A stretch of 38,583 nucleotides of DNA from Beijerinckiaceae bacterium (lineage in GTDB: Bacteria; Pseudomonadota; Alphaproteobacteria; Rhizobiales; Beijerinckiaceae), in NCBI GenBank assembly GCA_025458025.1, contig JALOTF010000018.1, positions 1 through 38,583 on the forward strand, in the 5' to 3' direction. The notes under the pieces were generated by a model. The model was not told the origin of the DNA and searched no databases. It worked only from the letters and a program-made list of their open reading frames with translations. Below are positions 7,399-36,256 of the stretch, piece after piece (within the stretch, counting starts at the first letter, position 1; every line of letters begins with the position of its first letter). The translations under genes and the position numbers were made by a program.

Positions 7399-8036
7399 GC
7401 CTCGATCTCCTTCGCCCCAGTCAGAACACCCGCCTCGCGCAGCGCATAGAGCACCCCGAAGAGCGGCAGGCCGAGAATGGTCGCGTGATCGCCCACGATC
7501 TCGGAGAAGAGATGCGGGCCGAGCCCCTCGATCTCGTATCCACCCACGGTTTCAGTGACCCTCGACCCCATGACGTCGAGATAGCGATCGAGAAACGCGT
7601 CGTCAAAAGCCCGCATGATCAGGGTGGCTGAGGAAATGCCGGCCCAGAGCACGGTTTCGCCGCGTCGCAAAGCGGATGCGGAATGAAGATGATGCGCCTT
7701 CCCGCGCAGACGGGCGATCTGCGCGCGCGCAGCGGTTCGGTCCACTGGTTTCATGAACAGCGAGCCATCAAGATCCAGCGTCTGGTCTGCGGCGAGCACG
7801 AGACGATCAGGGTGAAGCCGCGCCACGGCTTCTGCCTTTGCATGCGCGAGGGCGATGGCGATTTCCGCTGGGGTCGCCCGGTTTTCGAGCAGCGTTGCGG
7901 CGATGGCCTTTTCATCCACGCGTGGCTTGATGATCTCCAGCGGCACGCCGCAGGATTCGAGTAGCAGGCGACGCGCCGCACTGCCGGAAGCGAGAACCAG
8001 CGGCTCTTGACCGAGCCAGAACGGTGACATTGTCAT
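7395..8036 (-). CDS. maf: Maf-like nucleoside triphosphate pyrophosphatase
   Basis: A 213-residue Maf/Ham1-fold house-cleaning enzyme that hydrolyses non-canonical or modified NTPs. [18 protein letters not shown] at residues 12-29 matches the family S-x-x-R-x-x-L-L motif. [19 protein letters not shown] (catalytic Asp/Gln region) and GGYEIEGLG follow. Which Maf subclass it belongs to (dTTP/UTP or m7GTP type) I did not settle. The ATG overlaps the ppsR stop and the stop overlaps the aroE start, each by 4 nt. A second ATG two codons in is also possible. Confidence 0.9.
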
Positions 8037-8866
8037 TGCGCGATGAGACCCAGCCGATGCGTGCGGTGCAGATCGATGATCGCCGCTGCCGTTTCCTCGA
8101 TGGATCGCCGTGTCACGTCGATCACTGGCCAGTTATGGCGATCGAAGAGCCGGCGCGCGCGCAGAATTTCGTCCGTCACGGATTGCTTGTCGGTGTAGGT
8201 CGCATCCTTGTCATCCGCATTGAGCGCGAGAAGGCGGTTCTGGCGGATCTGCACGATACGCTCGGGCGAGGCCACAAGCCCGACGACCAAGGGGCGGCGC
8301 AGCGTTTCCAGCTCGGACGGTGCCGTCACGCCGGGCACAAGCGGCACATTCGCGGTCTTGATGCCGCGATTGGCAAGATAGATGCTCGTCGGCGTCTTGG
8401 ATGTGCGGCTCACGCCAACCAGAACCACATCGGCCTGTTCGAGATTGTCGAGCATCTGGCCGTCATCATGCATCATCGTGAAGTTTAGCGCGTCGATGCG
8501 GCGGAAATATTCGGTCGAGAGCGTATGCTGGCCACCGATACGCGGTGTCATGGCCACGCCGAGATAGGACTGGAACAGCCCTACAATCGGATCGAGCACG
8601 GACATGCTGGGGCAGCCCATCTCCTCGCAGGCCGAGCGCAGACGCTCCGAGAGATCTTTCTCGACCAGCGTGAAAAGCACGATGCCCGGCTCGTTCTCGA
8701 TTTCGGAGATCACGCGATCGAGCTGCCGCATGTTGCGCACGAGGGGATAGACATGCTCGATCGGCGAGATGCCTTGATACTGCGCGGTGGCTGCACGGCC
8801 CACGGTGATGAGCGTCTCGCCGGTGGAATCCGACACGAGATGCAGATGAAAGAAACTGCGGCCCAT
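8033..8866 (-). CDS. ppsR: Pyruvate, phosphate dikinase regulatory protein (DUF299, kinase/pyrophosphorylase)
   Basis: A 277-residue bifunctional regulator. Family members phosphorylate (ADP-dependent) and dephosphorylate a threonine of pyruvate phosphate dikinase or PEP synthase. The start [13 protein letters not shown] and the P-loop-like [18 protein letters not shown] at about residues 154-171 are diagnostic, as is the C-terminal [16 protein letters not shown]. This is the orthologue of Rickettsia RP001, which flanks the replication origin opposite hemE in Caulobacter and Rickettsia. It heads the minus-strand cluster; its promoter must lie in the origin region. No PPDK gene is in the window. 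Confidence 0.93.
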
Positions 8867-8917
8867 CGCGTTCCGTAACTGTCTGGATTCGCCGGTCTCT
8901 CCGGCTTGTCTACGGAC

Positions 8918-8926
8918 TTCTCCACA
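8918..8926 (+). promoter_or_regulatory. DnaA box, one mismatch
   Basis: TTCTCCACA differs from the consensus TTATCCACA only at the third base. It is the best DnaA-box match that I found in the ppsR-hemE gap. Confidence 0.45.
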
Positions 8927-9009
8927 GGCCTGTTGTCAAGCCGGGAAAGAAGGGCCGGAAACGGGCTCATCGCCCGGCCGCCCCTGCGGCATGCGGGAAA
9001 ACCTGTCTT

Positions 9010-9092
9010 CCGGATTCACAGACCCGCGAGCGGGATAGCGTTCGGAGCGCAAGGGATGGAATCCGGGATATTTCCGAAGCTTGTGAATCCGG
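9010..9092. repeat. 11-bp inverted repeat in the origin region
   Basis: CCGGATTCACA (9010-9020) and its exact reverse complement TGTGAATCCGG (9082-9092) are separated by 61 bp. Each arm contains TTCACA, a degenerate DnaA-box core. Spacing is too long for a terminator; paired protein-binding sites are a likelier reading. Confidence 0.5.
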
Positions 9093-9214
9093 CTCTGAAG
9101 CGCTTTTCTTTTCAAAGCTTTGTGCCAGCCCTGTTCCGGACAGGTTGTGGATGGCTGGCCCGGAGAGACGAAGGGCGCTGTGGACGGAACTCGTCTTTCG
9201 CTCTAAGCCCCTCT

Positions 9215-9249
9215 AAGAGAAAAAGAAAAGAAAGAAAGACTCTTTTCTT
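9215..9249. other. Polypurine A-rich tract and AT hairpin, candidate DNA-unwinding element
   Basis: Bases 9215-9239 are 25 purines in a row, mostly A. AAGAAAAGA (9223-9231) pairs exactly with TCTTTTCTT (9241-9249). This is the most AT-rich stretch of the gap and lies 20 nt upstream of the hemE start. It could be the unwinding element, part of the hemE leader, or both. Confidence 0.35.
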
Positions 9250-9268
9250 GGTTTAAGGGGATTTGGGG

Positions 9269-10288
9269 ATGGATGGATTGCGTGGGGTGTTTGCAGGCCG
9301 GGTTGAAGCCGTGCCGCCGGTTTGGCTCATGCGGCAGGCGGGTCGCTATCTGCCAGAATATCGCGAGGTTCGTGCAACCGCCCGGGATTTCCTGTCCTTC
9401 TGCTACACGCCGGAACTGGCCATCGAAGTGACCTTGCAGCCGATCCGGCGCTTCGGCTTTGATGCCTCGATCATCTTCTCGGATATCCTCGTGATCCCCG
9501 ATGCGCTGGGACAGCGCGTGCGCTTCGTTGAGGGCGAAGGCCCCCGGCTTGATGCGATCGAGACGCCGGAAGCGCTACAGGCTCTCGCAACCACGCTCGA
9601 CGAGGAGAAGCTCCAGCCGGTCTATGAGGCTCTTCGTGGCGTGAGGGCGGCCCTTCCCGCTTCCACCTCGCTCATCGGCTTCTGTGGGGCGCCATGGACG
9701 CTGGCGACCTATATGATCGCGGGTCAGGGCACGCCGGATCAGGCGCCCGCGCGGCTCTTTGCCTATCGGCATCGTGCGGCCTTCGCGATGTTGATCGACC
9801 GGCTGACCGAGAGCTGCATCACGCATCTCTCGAACCAGATCGATGCCGGTGCGGAAATCGTGCAGATCTTCGATTCCTGGGCCGGCCCTTTGCCCCTGCG
9901 CGAATTCGAGGATTGGTGCGTCGAACCGGTTGCGCGCATCACGAGGGCCATCCGGGCACGCTACCCGCATGTGCCAGTCATCGCTTTTCCCCGCGCCATC
10001 GCGGGCAGCCTCAAGGGCTTTGTCGAGCGCACCGGCGTTCAGGCGATCAGCGTCGATACCGCTGCACGGCTTGCCGAAGTCCGCACAAGGCTGCCCTCGC
10101 ATATCGTCACGCAGGGCAATCTTGATCCGCTCGTGCTGATCGCGGGCGGTGAGGGGCTCGATCGTGCGGTGGATGACATTCGCGCGGCCACCGACGGGTT
10201 GCCACATGTGTTCAATCTTGGTCACGGCATCTTGCCGCAAACTCCGATTGCCCATGTCGAGCGCATGCTGGAGCGCATCCGTCGATGA
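9269..10288 (+). CDS. hemE: Uroporphyrinogen decarboxylase
   Basis: A 339-residue cytosolic enzyme that removes four acetate carboxyls from uroporphyrinogen III to give coproporphyrinogen III. The N-terminal signature [17 protein letters not shown] (residues about 17-33) carries the substrate-binding arginines. [12 protein letters not shown] and [15 protein letters not shown] hold further conserved active-site residues, and the C-terminal [12 protein letters not shown] is typical. ATG 9269 is chosen because AAGGGG lies 8 nt upstream; a TTG two codons earlier is unlikely. It overlaps hemJ by 4 nt (ATGA). It is the first gene right of the predicted origin, as in Caulobacter. Confidence 0.96.
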
Positions 10289-13525: not shown

Positions 13526-15424
13526 ATGTTTCACGTGAAACACGACTCTGGCATGACGCCGGCCCGTTTCGATGTGGTGGTGGTTGGAGGCGGGCATGCA
13601 GGAACGGAAGCCGCCGCGGCTGCGGCCCGCATCGGCGCTTCGGTCGCGCTTATCACGCATCGCTGGGAGAGCGTCGGTGTCATGTCATGCAACCCAGCCA
13701 TAGGCGGGTTAGGCAAGGGGCATCTCGTTCGGGAGATTGACGCTCTTGACGGCCTGATGGGTCGGGCAATTGATCGCGCGGGTATCCATTTCAAAATGCT
13801 CAATCGCTCCAAAGGGCCAGCCGTGAGGGGACCGCGTGCCCAAGCTGACCGAAAATTGTATCGTCAAGCCATCCAGGATTTGCTGTCGGAAATCCCAAAT
13901 CTTCACCTGATCGAGGGAGAGGTTGTTGATCTGCAGGTTATCGGTGGCGCGGTTTGTGGTGTGGAGCTTGCGGATGGCCGTCTCGTCAGCAGTGCATCCG
14001 TCGTTTTGACTACCGGCACATTTCTGCGAGGTGTTATTCATCTTGGAACCGAACGCACAGCTGGCGGACGAATTGGCGAGGCTGCGGCAGAGCGATTGTC
14101 CCAGCGATTGCTGGCGCTTGGTCTTCCACTGGGTCGGCTGAAGACAGGGACGCCCGCGCGTCTGGATGGTCGTACTATCGACTGGGCGGCCTGCGAGCAG
14201 CAACTTGGTGATGATCCGCCGGAGCCCTTCTCGGTTCTGACAGACCATATTACCAATCGACAGATCGCTTGTGGCATAACATATACCAGCCCGGAAACGC
14301 ACCGCGTTATCCGGCAGAACCTTCACAGATCGGCAATGTATGGCGGCCAGATTGAAGGTCGCGGTCCACGCTATTGTCCGTCCATCGAGGACAAGGTTGT
14401 CCGCTTTGCCGACCGTGACCGTCATCAGATCTTTTTGGAACCAGAGGGACTGGATGATCCTCTAGTCTATCCCAATGGGTTGTCGACGTCGCTTCCGACG
14501 GATGCGCAGGATGCTCTCTTCGCATCCATTCCTGGTTTGGAGAAGGCCAGCATCATTCGCTATGGCTATGCCATTGAGTATGATTACGTAGACCCGCGCG
14601 CGCTTCATTCCTCGCTGGAACTGAAGGTCCTGCCGGGCCTTTTTTTGGCCGGCCAGATCAACGGGACGACCGGCTACGAGGAAGCGGGCGCCCAAGGGTT
14701 AGTCGCTGGTCTCAATGCCGCGCGTATGGCTGGTGGATCCGCCGTTATCGAGTTCGGCCGTGCGCAGTCCTATATCGGTGTCATGATTGATGATCTGACC
14801 CGTTTTGGTGTAACCGAGCCTTACCGCATGTTTACATCGCGAGCGGAGTTTCGTCTCACGCTGCGGGCAGATAACGCTTCGGAGCGCCTGACTGGTCTTG
14901 GCATAAATCTTGGCCTTGTCGGCAGTAAACGGGCTGTTTGGTTTCAGGCGGCGCGGGACGCATTGGACGCTGTTCGTGCCCGGCTGATGGCTCTGAGTGT
15001 GACCCCCAATATAGCGAATGCGGCTGGCATCTCTGTCAATCGAGATGGGGTACGGCGGAACGGAATGGAATTACTGTCTCTACCAAATGTGACCTTCACT
15101 GATCTTGTTAGCTTCGATTCGGAACTGAAATCAGTGGCACCGGGGCTGCGCGAGAAGCTCGAAGTTGAGGCTCGATATGCGGTCTATCTCGAACGCCAGC
15201 AGAGGGACATTGAGCGTTTGCAGCGTGATATGGAACTGCGGATTCCGGAAGACTTCCGATATGGCGAACATTCAGGGTTTTCCGGTGAACTCCGGAATAA
15301 GCTCGAATTGATTCGACCCCGTTCCATCGCAGAAGCAGCTGCCATTGAGGGTATGACACCGACGGCTTTGGTTTTGCTCTCGGCGTTGATTCAGAAGAGC
15401 AAGGCTCGAAGCGATGTCGCCTGA
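13526..15424 (+). CDS. mnmG: tRNA U34 modification enzyme MnmG (GidA)
   Basis: A 632-residue FAD protein, partner of MnmE in wobble uridine modification. The FAD-binding Rossmann motif [13 protein letters not shown] is at residues 17-29, followed by the GidA signatures [22 protein letters not shown] (about 52-73) and [13 protein letters not shown] (about 91-103), with the second family block [16 protein letters not shown] near 372-387. The first six codons are made of the parS site, so residues 2-6 probably reflect parS and not enzyme function; homology starts at about residue 14. The gene overlaps rsmG by 11 nt. GC in sampled lines runs from 42 to 62%, lower than in most of the window. Confidence 0.95.
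13527..13542. promoter_or_regulatory. parS: parS site 1 (perfect 16-bp palindrome), over the mnmG start codon
   Basis: TGTTTCACGTGAAACA is an exact match to the conserved chromosomal parS sequence, the ParB loading site. It begins at the T of the mnmG ATG and runs through codon 6, so it encodes FHVKH at the N-terminus of MnmG. It is about 4.3 kb from the predicted origin and 3.4 kb from parB. Confidence 0.95.
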
Positions 15425-16052
15425 GACAGTCTCCGAGCAGCATGCGAAGGCGGATCTTGTCGACCGCCACGGTGTTTCACGTGAAACACTTGCGCGGCTG
15501 GAGACCTATGTGGATCATCTTCGCCACTGGCAGAAGACCACCAATCTTGTGGCGCCGTCTACCTTGAGCCAGATCTGGTCGCGTCATATTCTCGATTCAG
15601 CGCAGCTTTTGTCGCTCGTGCCAGATGCCAGGACCTGGCTTGATCTTGGCTCGGGCGGAGGATTGCCGGGCCTTGTTCTCGCCTGTCAGTTGAAAGAACT
15701 CGGCGGTTCCGTGGATCTTGTCGAAAGCAACAGCAAGAAGGCGGCCTTCCTGCGTCATGTTGTGACCTCGTTGTCGCTGCCGGCCCGCGTGCATTCTGGG
15801 CGGATTGAAACTGTGATGCCGAGCCTCCCAAAGTTCGACGTCGTGACAGCGCGTGCGCTCGCCACCTTGAGTGATCTACTTGGATACACCAATGAGCTGT
15901 TGAAAAGCGGGACTATCGGACTCTTTCCCAAGGGTCGCGACTATGCCGCGGAGTTGACCGAGGCCTGCAAGCGCTGGCATTTCTCATACGAGCTGCACGC
16001 GAGTCGAACGGAGCCTGAGGCGCGGATCATCCGGATCACTGCCTTGTCCTGA
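15414..16052 (+). CDS. rsmG: 16S rRNA (guanine527-N7)-methyltransferase RsmG (GidB)
   Basis: A 212-residue SAM-dependent methyltransferase that makes m7G527 of 16S rRNA; loss of this mark gives low-level streptomycin resistance in other bacteria. The helical N-terminus ([19 protein letters not shown]) leads to [10 protein letters not shown] and the SAM motif [16 protein letters not shown] at residues 75-90, then [15 protein letters not shown] and [17 protein letters not shown] 15414 overlaps the mnmG end by 11 nt. The parS site falls in the first helix, where the VSRET peptide is well tolerated. Confidence 0.95.
15473..15488. promoter_or_regulatory. parS: parS site 2 (perfect 16-bp palindrome) inside rsmG
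   Basis: A second exact TGTTTCACGTGAAACA, 1946 bp from the first. It covers the last base of codon 20 through codon 25 of rsmG and encodes VSRET. It is 1.4 kb upstream of parB. Confidence 0.95.
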
Positions 16053-16073: not shown

Positions 16074-16880
16074 ATGCTGGAGAGACGGATGAAGCCTCGG
16101 GTTCTGACAGTCGCCAACCAGAAGGGCGGAGTGGGCAAGACTACCACTGCCATCAATCTGGGAACCGCTCTTGCTGCGATTGGCGAACGCGTACTGCTGA
16201 TCGACCTCGATCCGCAGGGCAATGCATCCACAGGGTTGGGTGTTCACAGCGCGGCTCGGGCGCATTCGAGCTATGATGTGCTTCTCGGGGAGATGAGCCT
16301 CGCCGAAGCGGCGCAGCCCACGGATGTACCCCGTGTTTCCATTGTTCCGGCGACGATGGATCTGCTCGGGGCGGAGATCACGCTCGCCGGCCAGCGCGAC
16401 CGTACGCACAAGCTGCGTGCCGCAATCGAAAAGCTTGGGCCTGAAGCGCCGTTTTCCTACATCCTGATCGATTGTCCGCCTTCCCTGAACCTGCTGACCA
16501 TCAATGCGCTTGCCGCATCCGATGGCGTGCTGGTGCCGCTGCAATGCGAATTTTTCGCACTGGAGGGCCTTAGCCAGCTTCTCAAGACCGTTGAGCAGGT
16601 GCGCAGCTCGGTGAATGCCGAGCTTGAGATCTATGGCGTGGTCCTGACCATGTTTGATCCGCGGAATAATCTCGCGAACCAGGTTATCCGTGATGTGCGC
16701 CAGTTCCTCGGCACCAAGGTGTTCGAGACTGTCATTCCACGCAATGTGCGCGTCTCCGAGGCCCCATCTTTCGGCAAGCCGGTCTTGCTGTATGATCTCA
16801 AATGTGCGGGCAGCCAGGCCTATCTGAAGCTTGCCTCCGAGGTGATCCAGCGTGAGCGTCTGCTGCAGGCAGCCGAGTAA
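16074..16880 (+). CDS. parA: Chromosome-partitioning ATPase ParA
   Basis: A 268-residue deviant Walker A ATPase that binds DNA non-specifically and moves ParB-parS complexes after replication. The P-loop KGGVGKTTT is at residues 17-25 with the signature lysine, followed by LLIDLDPQGNASTGLG (A') and ILIDCPPSLN (Walker B). Two starts fit: ATG 16074 (used) or ATG 16089, five codons in, with GGAG closer upstream. It follows rsmG by 21 nt and precedes parB by 12 nt, the classic origin-proximal order. Confidence 0.95.
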   Translation: MLERRMKPRVLTVANQKGGVGKTTTAINLGTALAAIGERVLLIDLDPQGNASTGLGVHSAARAHSSYDVLLGEMSLAEAAQPTDVPRVSIVPATMDLLGAEITLAGQRDRTHKLRAAIEKLGPEAPFSYILIDCPPSLNLLTINALAASDGVLVPLQCEFFALEGLSQLLKTVEQVRSSVNAELEIYGVVLTMFDPRNNLANQVIRDVRQFLGTKVFETVIPRNVRVSEAPSFGKPVLLYDLKCAGSQAYLKLASEVIQRERLLQAAE

Positions 16881-16892
16881 GCGAGGGCAGAT

Positions 16893-17789
16893 ATGAGCGA
16901 CGAAATTTCCAGGAATCGCCTTGGTCGTGGTCTTGCTGCGCTGCTCGGGGATGTCGGTGCCGAAGCGACCGCCGAGAAACGCCTGAAAAGTCAGCGGCGT
17001 GTGCCGATTGAGTTCCTTCGGCCGAGCCCGATGAACCCGCGTATTCATTTTAATGACGCGGAACTGGATGAACTCGCTCAATCGATTCGTGAGCGTGATA
17101 TTATTCAGCCCATCGTTGTGCGCGGTGTGCCGGGCGTGCCGGATGCCTTCGAGATCATCGCTGGCGAGCGCCGTTGGCGTGGTGCGCAGCGGGCTGGTCT
17201 CCATGATGTGCCGGTGGTCATCGTCGAGGCGGATGACAAGCAGGCCCTGGAACTGGCGATCATCGAGAACGTCCAGCGTGCGGACCTCAATGCTCTAGAA
17301 GAGGCCAAGGGCTATGAGGCGCTCATCGCGCAGTATCAGTATACGCAGAGCGATCTCTCGCAGATTCTCGGCAAGAGCCGTAGTCACGTCGCCAATACCT
17401 TGCGGCTTGCGCGGCTGCCGGAGGGTGTGAAGCAAAAGCTTAGCACGGGTGCGCTTTCTGCTGGCCATGCGCGCGCACTTCTCTCTGTTTCGGATCCGGA
17501 ACTCGTTGCAAAACGTATTGTGGATCAAGGGCTTACTGTGCGTGATGTCGAGCGCATCGCCCAAAAGGAAGCCGAGGGCGAAAGCCCACGTGCGCCCCGC
17601 GCGCGTGAGAAGGATGCTGATACGCGCGCGCTCGAGTTGCGCCTGTCTGATCTGCTTGGACTTGCAGTCAGCATCGATCATCGCGGCGAGAAGGGCGGAG
17701 CGATTACCATCCGCTATCGCACTTTGGAGCAGCTGGAGGCTTTGAGCCACCGGCTCGCCGTGTCAGCGGCTGCCCCGGCGCGCAGCTAG
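16893..17789 (+). CDS. parB: Chromosome-partitioning protein ParB (CTPase, parS-binding)
   Basis: A 298-residue CTP-dependent DNA clamp that loads at parS and spreads. The N-terminal NRLGRGLAALLGD is the ParA-contact peptide. The CTP-binding domain shows PSPMNPRIHF, IIQPIVVRG, IIAGERRWRGAQRAG and ENVQRADLNALEEA. The helix-turn-helix (TQSDLSQILGKSRSHVANTLRL) is at about residues 150-172, with LSAGHARALL after it. The C-terminal dimer domain ends near LEQLEALSHRL. The last 27 nt overlap the 3' end of convergent holA. Confidence 0.96.
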   Translation: MSDEISRNRLGRGLAALLGDVGAEATAEKRLKSQRRVPIEFLRPSPMNPRIHFNDAELDELAQSIRERDIIQPIVVRGVPGVPDAFEIIAGERRWRGAQRAGLHDVPVVIVEADDKQALELAIIENVQRADLNALEEAKGYEALIAQYQYTQSDLSQILGKSRSHVANTLRLARLPEGVKQKLSTGALSAGHARALLSVSDPELVAKRIVDQGLTVRDVERIAQKEAEGESPRAPRAREKDADTRALELRLSDLLGLAVSIDHRGEKGGAITIRYRTLEQLEALSHRLAVSAAAPARS

Positions 17790-36181: not shown

Positions 36182-36256
36182 GCGGGTGTAGCTCAGGGGT
36201 AGAGCACAACCTTGCCAAGGTTGGGGTCAAGGGTTCGAATCCCTTTACCCGCTCCA
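36182..36256 (+). tRNA. tRNA-Gly (anticodon GCC)
   Basis: A full cloverleaf: acceptor GCGGGTG pairs with TACCCGC (one G-T), D arm GCTC..GAGC, anticodon stem CAACC/GGTTG around loop TTGCCAA with anticodon GCC, and T arm AGGGTTCGAATCCCT. CCA is encoded (36254-36256). It reads GGC and GGU codons. Confidence 0.97.

Follow-up and report, generated by a model that had tools for sequence, protein, structure and literature searches.

How an alphaproteobacterial origin of replication that is devoid of CtrA sites couples replication to the cell cycle is the question raised by the locus described here. No instance of a response regulator controlling an origin has been studied better than the block imposed by CtrA (PMC4468827), and it is already known that some predicted alphaproteobacterial origins are without CtrA sites (PMC1914354). 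A preliminary description of a 402-bp intergenic gap in a Beijerinckiaceae bacterium proposed that this gap is oriC, and that it seems to lack perfect DnaA boxes as well as CtrA sites. The window that we analyzed is one whole contig (C1, 38,583 bp) of the 153-contig, 3.29-Mb draft genome of this bacterium. We compared it across a sample of 17 genomes of its genus, its own included, and with 58 genomes from the same family but outside of the genus.

The gap lies between divergent ppsR and hemE genes and is linked to parABS

The gap occupies positions 8867 to 9268 of the window. It is flanked on the left by ppsR (8033 to 8866, minus strand), which encodes a DUF299/kinase-pyrophosphorylase protein (Kinase-PPPase PF03618, E 8.5e-92), and on the right by hemE (9269 to 10288, plus strand, with its ATG at 9269; URO-D PF01208, E 3.5e-108). 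These Pfam matches confirm the coordinates, the identities and the outward orientation of the two genes as originally described. The same divergent ppsR-hemE gap was present in 15 of the 17 genus genomes, which are all those in which hemE was found; hemE was unmatched in the other 2. Outside of the genus, a readable ppsR-hemE gap was present in 48 of the 58 family genomes. In the other 10 (G022, G023, G033, G065, G066, G067, G078, G081, G087 and G096) the start of ppsR was not seen before hemE, and some of them may no longer have the two genes side by side; the contig of G065 starts 576 bp before the hemE match.

Gene order 3' of hemE is a UPF0093 gene, rho, mnmE, mnmG, gidB, parA (16074 to 16880, plus strand; PF13614, E 4.5e-58) and parB (16893 to 17789, plus strand; PF02195 and PF17762). 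Two perfect parS sites (TGTTTCACGTGAAACA, plus strand) were found, one at the start of mnmG (13527 to 13542) and one inside gidB (15473 to 15488), whereas the chance expectation for the window is 0.05 even when up to two mismatches are allowed. With both parS sites and parAB located 4-9 kb from the gap, the proposed proximity of parABS holds. A search of the whole window against Rfam at gathering score returned a tRNA at 36182-36253 as its sole match, and no known RNA in the gap comparable to CcnA of the Caulobacter origin. The first 1000 positions of the window, located at the contig end, have a G+C content of 0.539, clearly below that of the neighbouring stretches.

Strand skew changes near hemE in three of four relatives

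We measured strand skew in four same-genus relatives with long contigs (G003, G004, G009 and G013). Raw, uncorrected GC skew was rejected as an origin test because it was too weak, being suggestive in G003 and showing nothing clear in G004. The measure used was third-position GC skew (GC3) with gene direction regressed out. At hemE, this corrected skew turned from negative to positive in G003 (t 4.5), G009 (t 6.8) and G013 (t 6.5), with a t of 0.4 in G004. AT skew changed as well. A joint GC and AT scan placed the change point 25 kb from hemE in G003, 11 kb in G009 and 14 kb in G013, and 92%, 99% and 98% of the respective bootstraps were within 50 kb of hemE.

An origin at dnaA is a common arrangement in other bacteria, and would leave the gap as an ancestral relic only. 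The dnaA gene is located about 205-209 kb from the gap in G003 and G004, and G004 showed no clear skew change, its best point in the joint scan having a low score and lying 187 kb from hemE. In G003, however, the change in corrected GC3 skew is better supported at hemE (t 4.5) than at dnaA, 205 kb away (t 1.95), and AT skew likewise gave t -6.5 at hemE compared to -4.1 at dnaA. The sequence preceding dnaA contained no perfect DnaA box in any of 16 genomes of the genus, while both parABS and the footprint of DnaA-type sites discussed below are at or near the gap. Taken together, these observations make an origin at dnaA extremely improbable.

Weak DnaA boxes and an unstable duplex characterize the gap

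Alignment of the genus gaps revealed conserved elements amid otherwise diverged sequence. Element A, on the ppsR side (8910 to 8941, plus strand), has a consensus of roughly CAACCGACTTnTCCACAGnCCTGTTGTCAAG and contains the one-mismatch DnaA box TTCTCCACA (8918-8926). On the hemE side there are two weak DnaA boxes with a TCCACA core, both on the minus strand. The first, CCATCCACA (9146 to 9154), fits the Caulobacter DnaA consensus [TC][TCG][AG]TCCACA as quoted in PMC2877005, and the second, CCGTCCACA (9179 to 9187), corresponds to conserved element C, CTGTGGAnG. A purine tract precedes hemE.

The one-mismatch box and the weaker cores named in the preliminary description are therefore present, although the single box alone is within chance and proves nothing, since the window holds 8 copies of TTATNCACA at a tolerance of one mismatch compared to 6.7 expected. 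The gap contains three TCCACA cores, whereas other stretches of equal size in the window hold at most 2. Among 99 stretches sampled from the four relatives (1.77 Mb), only 1, a repeated segment of G013, had at least three TCCACA per 402 bp. Tandem repeated segments with four TCCACA cores, apparently including a tRNA gene as judged by eye, were observed near position 1255 of L197 (G013:C13:21255). Across the 15 homologous genus gaps, TTATCCACA with one mismatch was found 21 times compared to 0.5 in dinucleotide shuffles. The Caulobacter-type pattern YBRTCCACA likewise occurred 21 times in the 6,453 bp of these gaps, compared to 0.27 expected from its density in the genus genomes, and was absent from 3 of the 15.

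The perfect DnaA box TTATCCACA was found neither in the gap of the window nor across the 15 genus gaps, nor in the whole 3.29-Mb draft genome. The lack of perfect boxes in the gap was thus described correctly; its interpretation as a departure from Caulobacter was wrong, because Cori itself has only weak boxes, namely moderate G-boxes and very weak W-boxes (PMC4468827). We also considered genome-wide avoidance of perfect boxes. The 17 genus genomes contain 25 copies of TTATCCACA compared to 188 of the reversed pattern, and Markov models, applied to sampled stretches of four relatives, predict 0.6-3.7 copies of TTATCCACA per genome. Summed over these relatives, 4 copies were seen compared to 6.8-11.1 expected. 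The same models predict 9.0-15.6 copies of the reversed pattern, of which 41 were seen, and this underprediction indicates that they are rough. We rejected avoidance as an explanation, as base composition accounts for most of the scarcity, leaving room for a mild deficit.

Within the gap, duplex stability is lowest in element D (9210 to 9257), an AT-rich purine/pyrimidine tract and candidate unwinding element. Just 0.13% of the 40-bp stretches in the window are as unstable, and the stability minimum is at a like place (112-119 bp before the segment end) in 12 of the 15 genus gaps, and elsewhere in 3. We searched with elements A to D by nhmmer against 49 gaps from named Alphaproteobacteria, which comprise 80 loci minus 29 without a readable ppsR-hemE pair and minus L001 and L002, which repeat genus genomes. 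Top scores were 8.3-16.1 bits, mostly weak, yet the matches outnumbered those in shuffled gaps, with elements B and D scoring best. As element D directly precedes the hemE start codon, it could serve hemE expression, as would be expected if the gap were an ordinary long divergent promoter region of ppsR and hemE. The skew change, parABS and the clustering of DnaA sites all argue against such a promoter-only role, which we regard as very improbable.

The gap has five GANTC (CcrM-type) sites, at 8886, 9013, 9059, 9085 and 9238 (spanning 8886 to 9242), compared to about 0.9 predicted from the density of the window itself. We dropped this enrichment as evidence for an origin because genus-wide counts are close to those in shuffles: 38 sites over the 15 genus gaps compared to 37.1, which is no excess. 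The 49 other gaps did show an excess (182 compared to 100.9). In the window as a whole (1-38583), GANTC is strongly under-represented, with 84 sites compared to 210 in shuffles. Such under-representation is expected in genomes with CcrM-type methylation.

Based on the skew change near hemE in relatives together with parS and parAB, we conclude that the 402-bp gap is very probably oriC. In addition to parABS and the skew change in 3 of the 4 relatives, the assignment is supported by synteny with divergent flanks, by the genus-wide footprint of enriched, conserved DnaA-type sites, and by the weak-duplex tract.

Perfect CtrA sites are lacking from the probable origin throughout the genus

We searched the gap for the CtrA motif TTAA-N7-TTAA, and found none in the window's gap with up to two mismatches allowed. 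Perfect copies were likewise absent from all 15 genus gaps, in which one-mismatch copies numbered 2, compared to 0.8 expected. The proposed lack of CtrA sites in the gap, by which its control would differ from that in Caulobacter, is hence supported across the genus, although CtrA may act at degenerate sites in the gap. One or two perfect copies per gap were present in 34 of the 48 readable gaps from other genera of the family, and 4 of the 10 genomes without ppsR before hemE carry a perfect site in the up to 720 bp taken there. Among the 49 gaps of named Alphaproteobacteria, 13 had a perfect site, while shuffles had a mean of 0.0. The two comparison sets overlap, as L004, L005, L016 and L023 are apparently the same contigs as G030, G089, G034 and G093, respectively. 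The CtrA gene was found in 17 of 17 genus genomes, with 81% identity to the typed Caulobacter CtrA, indicating that the regulator has not been lost from the genus. The GcrA gene was also found in all 17.

A CtrA-like site is conserved upstream of dnaA

Our first lead came from sites close to dnaA among the TTAA-N7-TTAA matches listed in the genus. A perfect site was present upstream of dnaA in 11 of the 16 genus genomes with sequence there, and in 12 of 17 once the genome of the window was added. Five close relatives (G002, G011, G012, G013 and G015) have a one-mismatch TTAA-N7-TTTA at a like place. In the window's own genome, contig C15 ends with rpsT, followed by the perfect site and sister-like sequence, while dnaA starts near the end of C74; we infer from the relatives that rpsT and dnaA are adjacent across these two contigs, which would bring the count to 17 of 17. 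A pattern derived from sister genomes failed to match the dnaA site in this genome, the spacer of which differs, while the general pattern matched.

Conservation of the dnaA site is confined largely to its half-sites: in nine chosen representatives, modal identity was 0.99 in the half-sites, 0.57 in the spacer, and 0.62 and 0.51 in the two flanks. The site precedes the most upstream start codon of the dnaA frame by about 220-310 bp, save for G001, in which the distance is 46 bp and the frame is open further. All 17 genomes have a TTGC whose hexamer ends 16 or 17 bp ahead of the site; G001 has a nearer TTGC as well, and its 16-bp one was read directly from the sequence. The left half-site would accordingly occupy the position of the -10 element in a putative TTGC-(16/17)-TTAA promoter. 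A promoter so far upstream would fit with the long dnaA 5'-UTRs discussed in PMC4414408, in which the 5'-UTR of S. meliloti dnaA was probed out to -372.

Outside of the genus, a perfect site was found within the up to 700 bp examined before dnaA in 7 of 55 family genomes (the 58 minus 3 with too little sequence before dnaA). Since the site of G069 is far upstream and that of G075 falls within a long opposite-strand reading frame, some of these seven may have no role as dnaA promoter sites. When up to one mismatch was tolerated, 29 of the 55 had a site in these 700 bp. One-mismatch sites are thus common by chance, and we give weight to the five in the genus solely for their position. The genomes G033, G029 and G074 have 27, 16 and 15 Bac_DnaA-domain matches, respectively, with the true dnaA included and most of them low-scoring; we take the extra matches to be IstB-kind transposon ATPases rather than further dnaA genes.

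CtrA input may have shifted from the origin to dnaA

Viewed together with the origin, the dnaA site leads us to favor, with moderate confidence, the hypothesis that the gap is a hemE-ppsR type oriC whose CtrA input has moved to the dnaA promoter. DnaA would load onto few weak boxes, namely the one in element A on the ppsR side and the two on the hemE side, and the loaded DnaA would then open the purine tract just before hemE. CtrA~P would no longer block the origin itself, and would limit initiation via transcription of dnaA. At dnaA, CtrA would probably act as a repressor, since the left half-site falls at the putative promoter -10.

Alternatively, the gap may be a plain hemE-type oriC from which CtrA control was wholly lost, with the dnaA site representing a promoter element or the site of another regulator, unrelated to the loss. 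Several findings point this way, and were counted against a shift of CtrA input: across the genomes of the genus the motif shows no enrichment (206 copies compared to 309 of the reversed pattern, a rough control), and perfect sites were found in 0 of 17 ctrA promoters (one locus being only 286 bp), with one-mismatch sites at -151 to -158 in 8 genomes. Furthermore, predicted origins without CtrA sites are known from E. ruminantium (as long as fewer than two mismatches are tolerated) and from one Wolbachia (PMC1914354). Complete loss is more difficult to reconcile with the retention of both half-sites in the nine representatives while the spacer changes, with the shared position of the dnaA site in all 17 genomes, and with the CtrA gene in each of them. 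We therefore view it as a plausible but distinctly less likely explanation than the transfer of CtrA input to dnaA.

If CtrA input was indeed transferred, then the genus may have undergone a swap, by loss of the oriC site and gain of the dnaA-promoter site, such that CtrA brakes DnaA synthesis rather than the origin; similar swaps may exist in other genera. We advance this broader interpretation, drawn from genome comparison, only tentatively. Outside of the genus, a dnaA site was present in 5 of the 14 genomes that lack an oriC site compared to 2 of the 32 that have one (Fisher p 0.02, with kinship ignored). The genus makes up one side of a branch in the HemE tree, meaning that the loss and the gain count once each, and the two may be one coincidence on one branch. 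A pair test for correlated evolution on this tree comprised only 2 to 4 independent pairs. Two genomes of another genus (g2), G017 and G083 (L350 and L273), share the CtrA-like TTAACCGTTTATTAA before dnaA and are without a perfect CtrA site at oriC, representing a possible second case. If true, relocation of the CtrA site to the initiator gene in this genus would illustrate the rewiring of origin control, and the two short DNA sites involved make the idea testable. In the literature searched, which was largely without subscription papers, we found no Beijerinckiaceae dnaA promoter described as having a CtrA site.

Comparison with known systems

Like Cori of Caulobacter crescentus and oriC of Rickettsia prowazekii, the origin described here is located between hemE and the DUF299 gene, and it shares with Cori the weak DnaA boxes, the AT-rich tract and the linkage to parABS (PMC1914354, PMC4468827). 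In contrast to the gap of the window and those of its genus, Cori contains five CtrA sites. Within the family and its near kin, the origins of Methylocystis, Methylocella, Methylobacterium and Chelatococcus composti have the same flanking genes and a similar gap size. Gaps from other genera of the family differ in that most of them (the 34 of 48 noted above) carry perfect CtrA sites, while those of Chelatococcus sambhunathii and Lichenibacterium have no perfect site either.

The predicted origins of Ehrlichia ruminantium and the pseudoscorpion Wolbachia are similar in having no CtrA site at the consensus used in PMC1914354, although E. ruminantium differs in that a tolerance of two mismatches yields two putative sites. 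In the portion of that paper available to us, we found nothing on a CtrA site before dnaA in either organism. Brilli et al. 2010 scanned the promoters of cell-cycle genes, dnaA included, for CtrA sites (PMC2877005), and the portion of their paper available to us yielded no report of a conserved dnaA CtrA site in Beijerinckiaceae. The site upstream of dnaA resembles those of CtrA-regulated promoters of Alphaproteobacteria, in that it is a TTAA-N7-TTAA palindrome positioned at a likely promoter.
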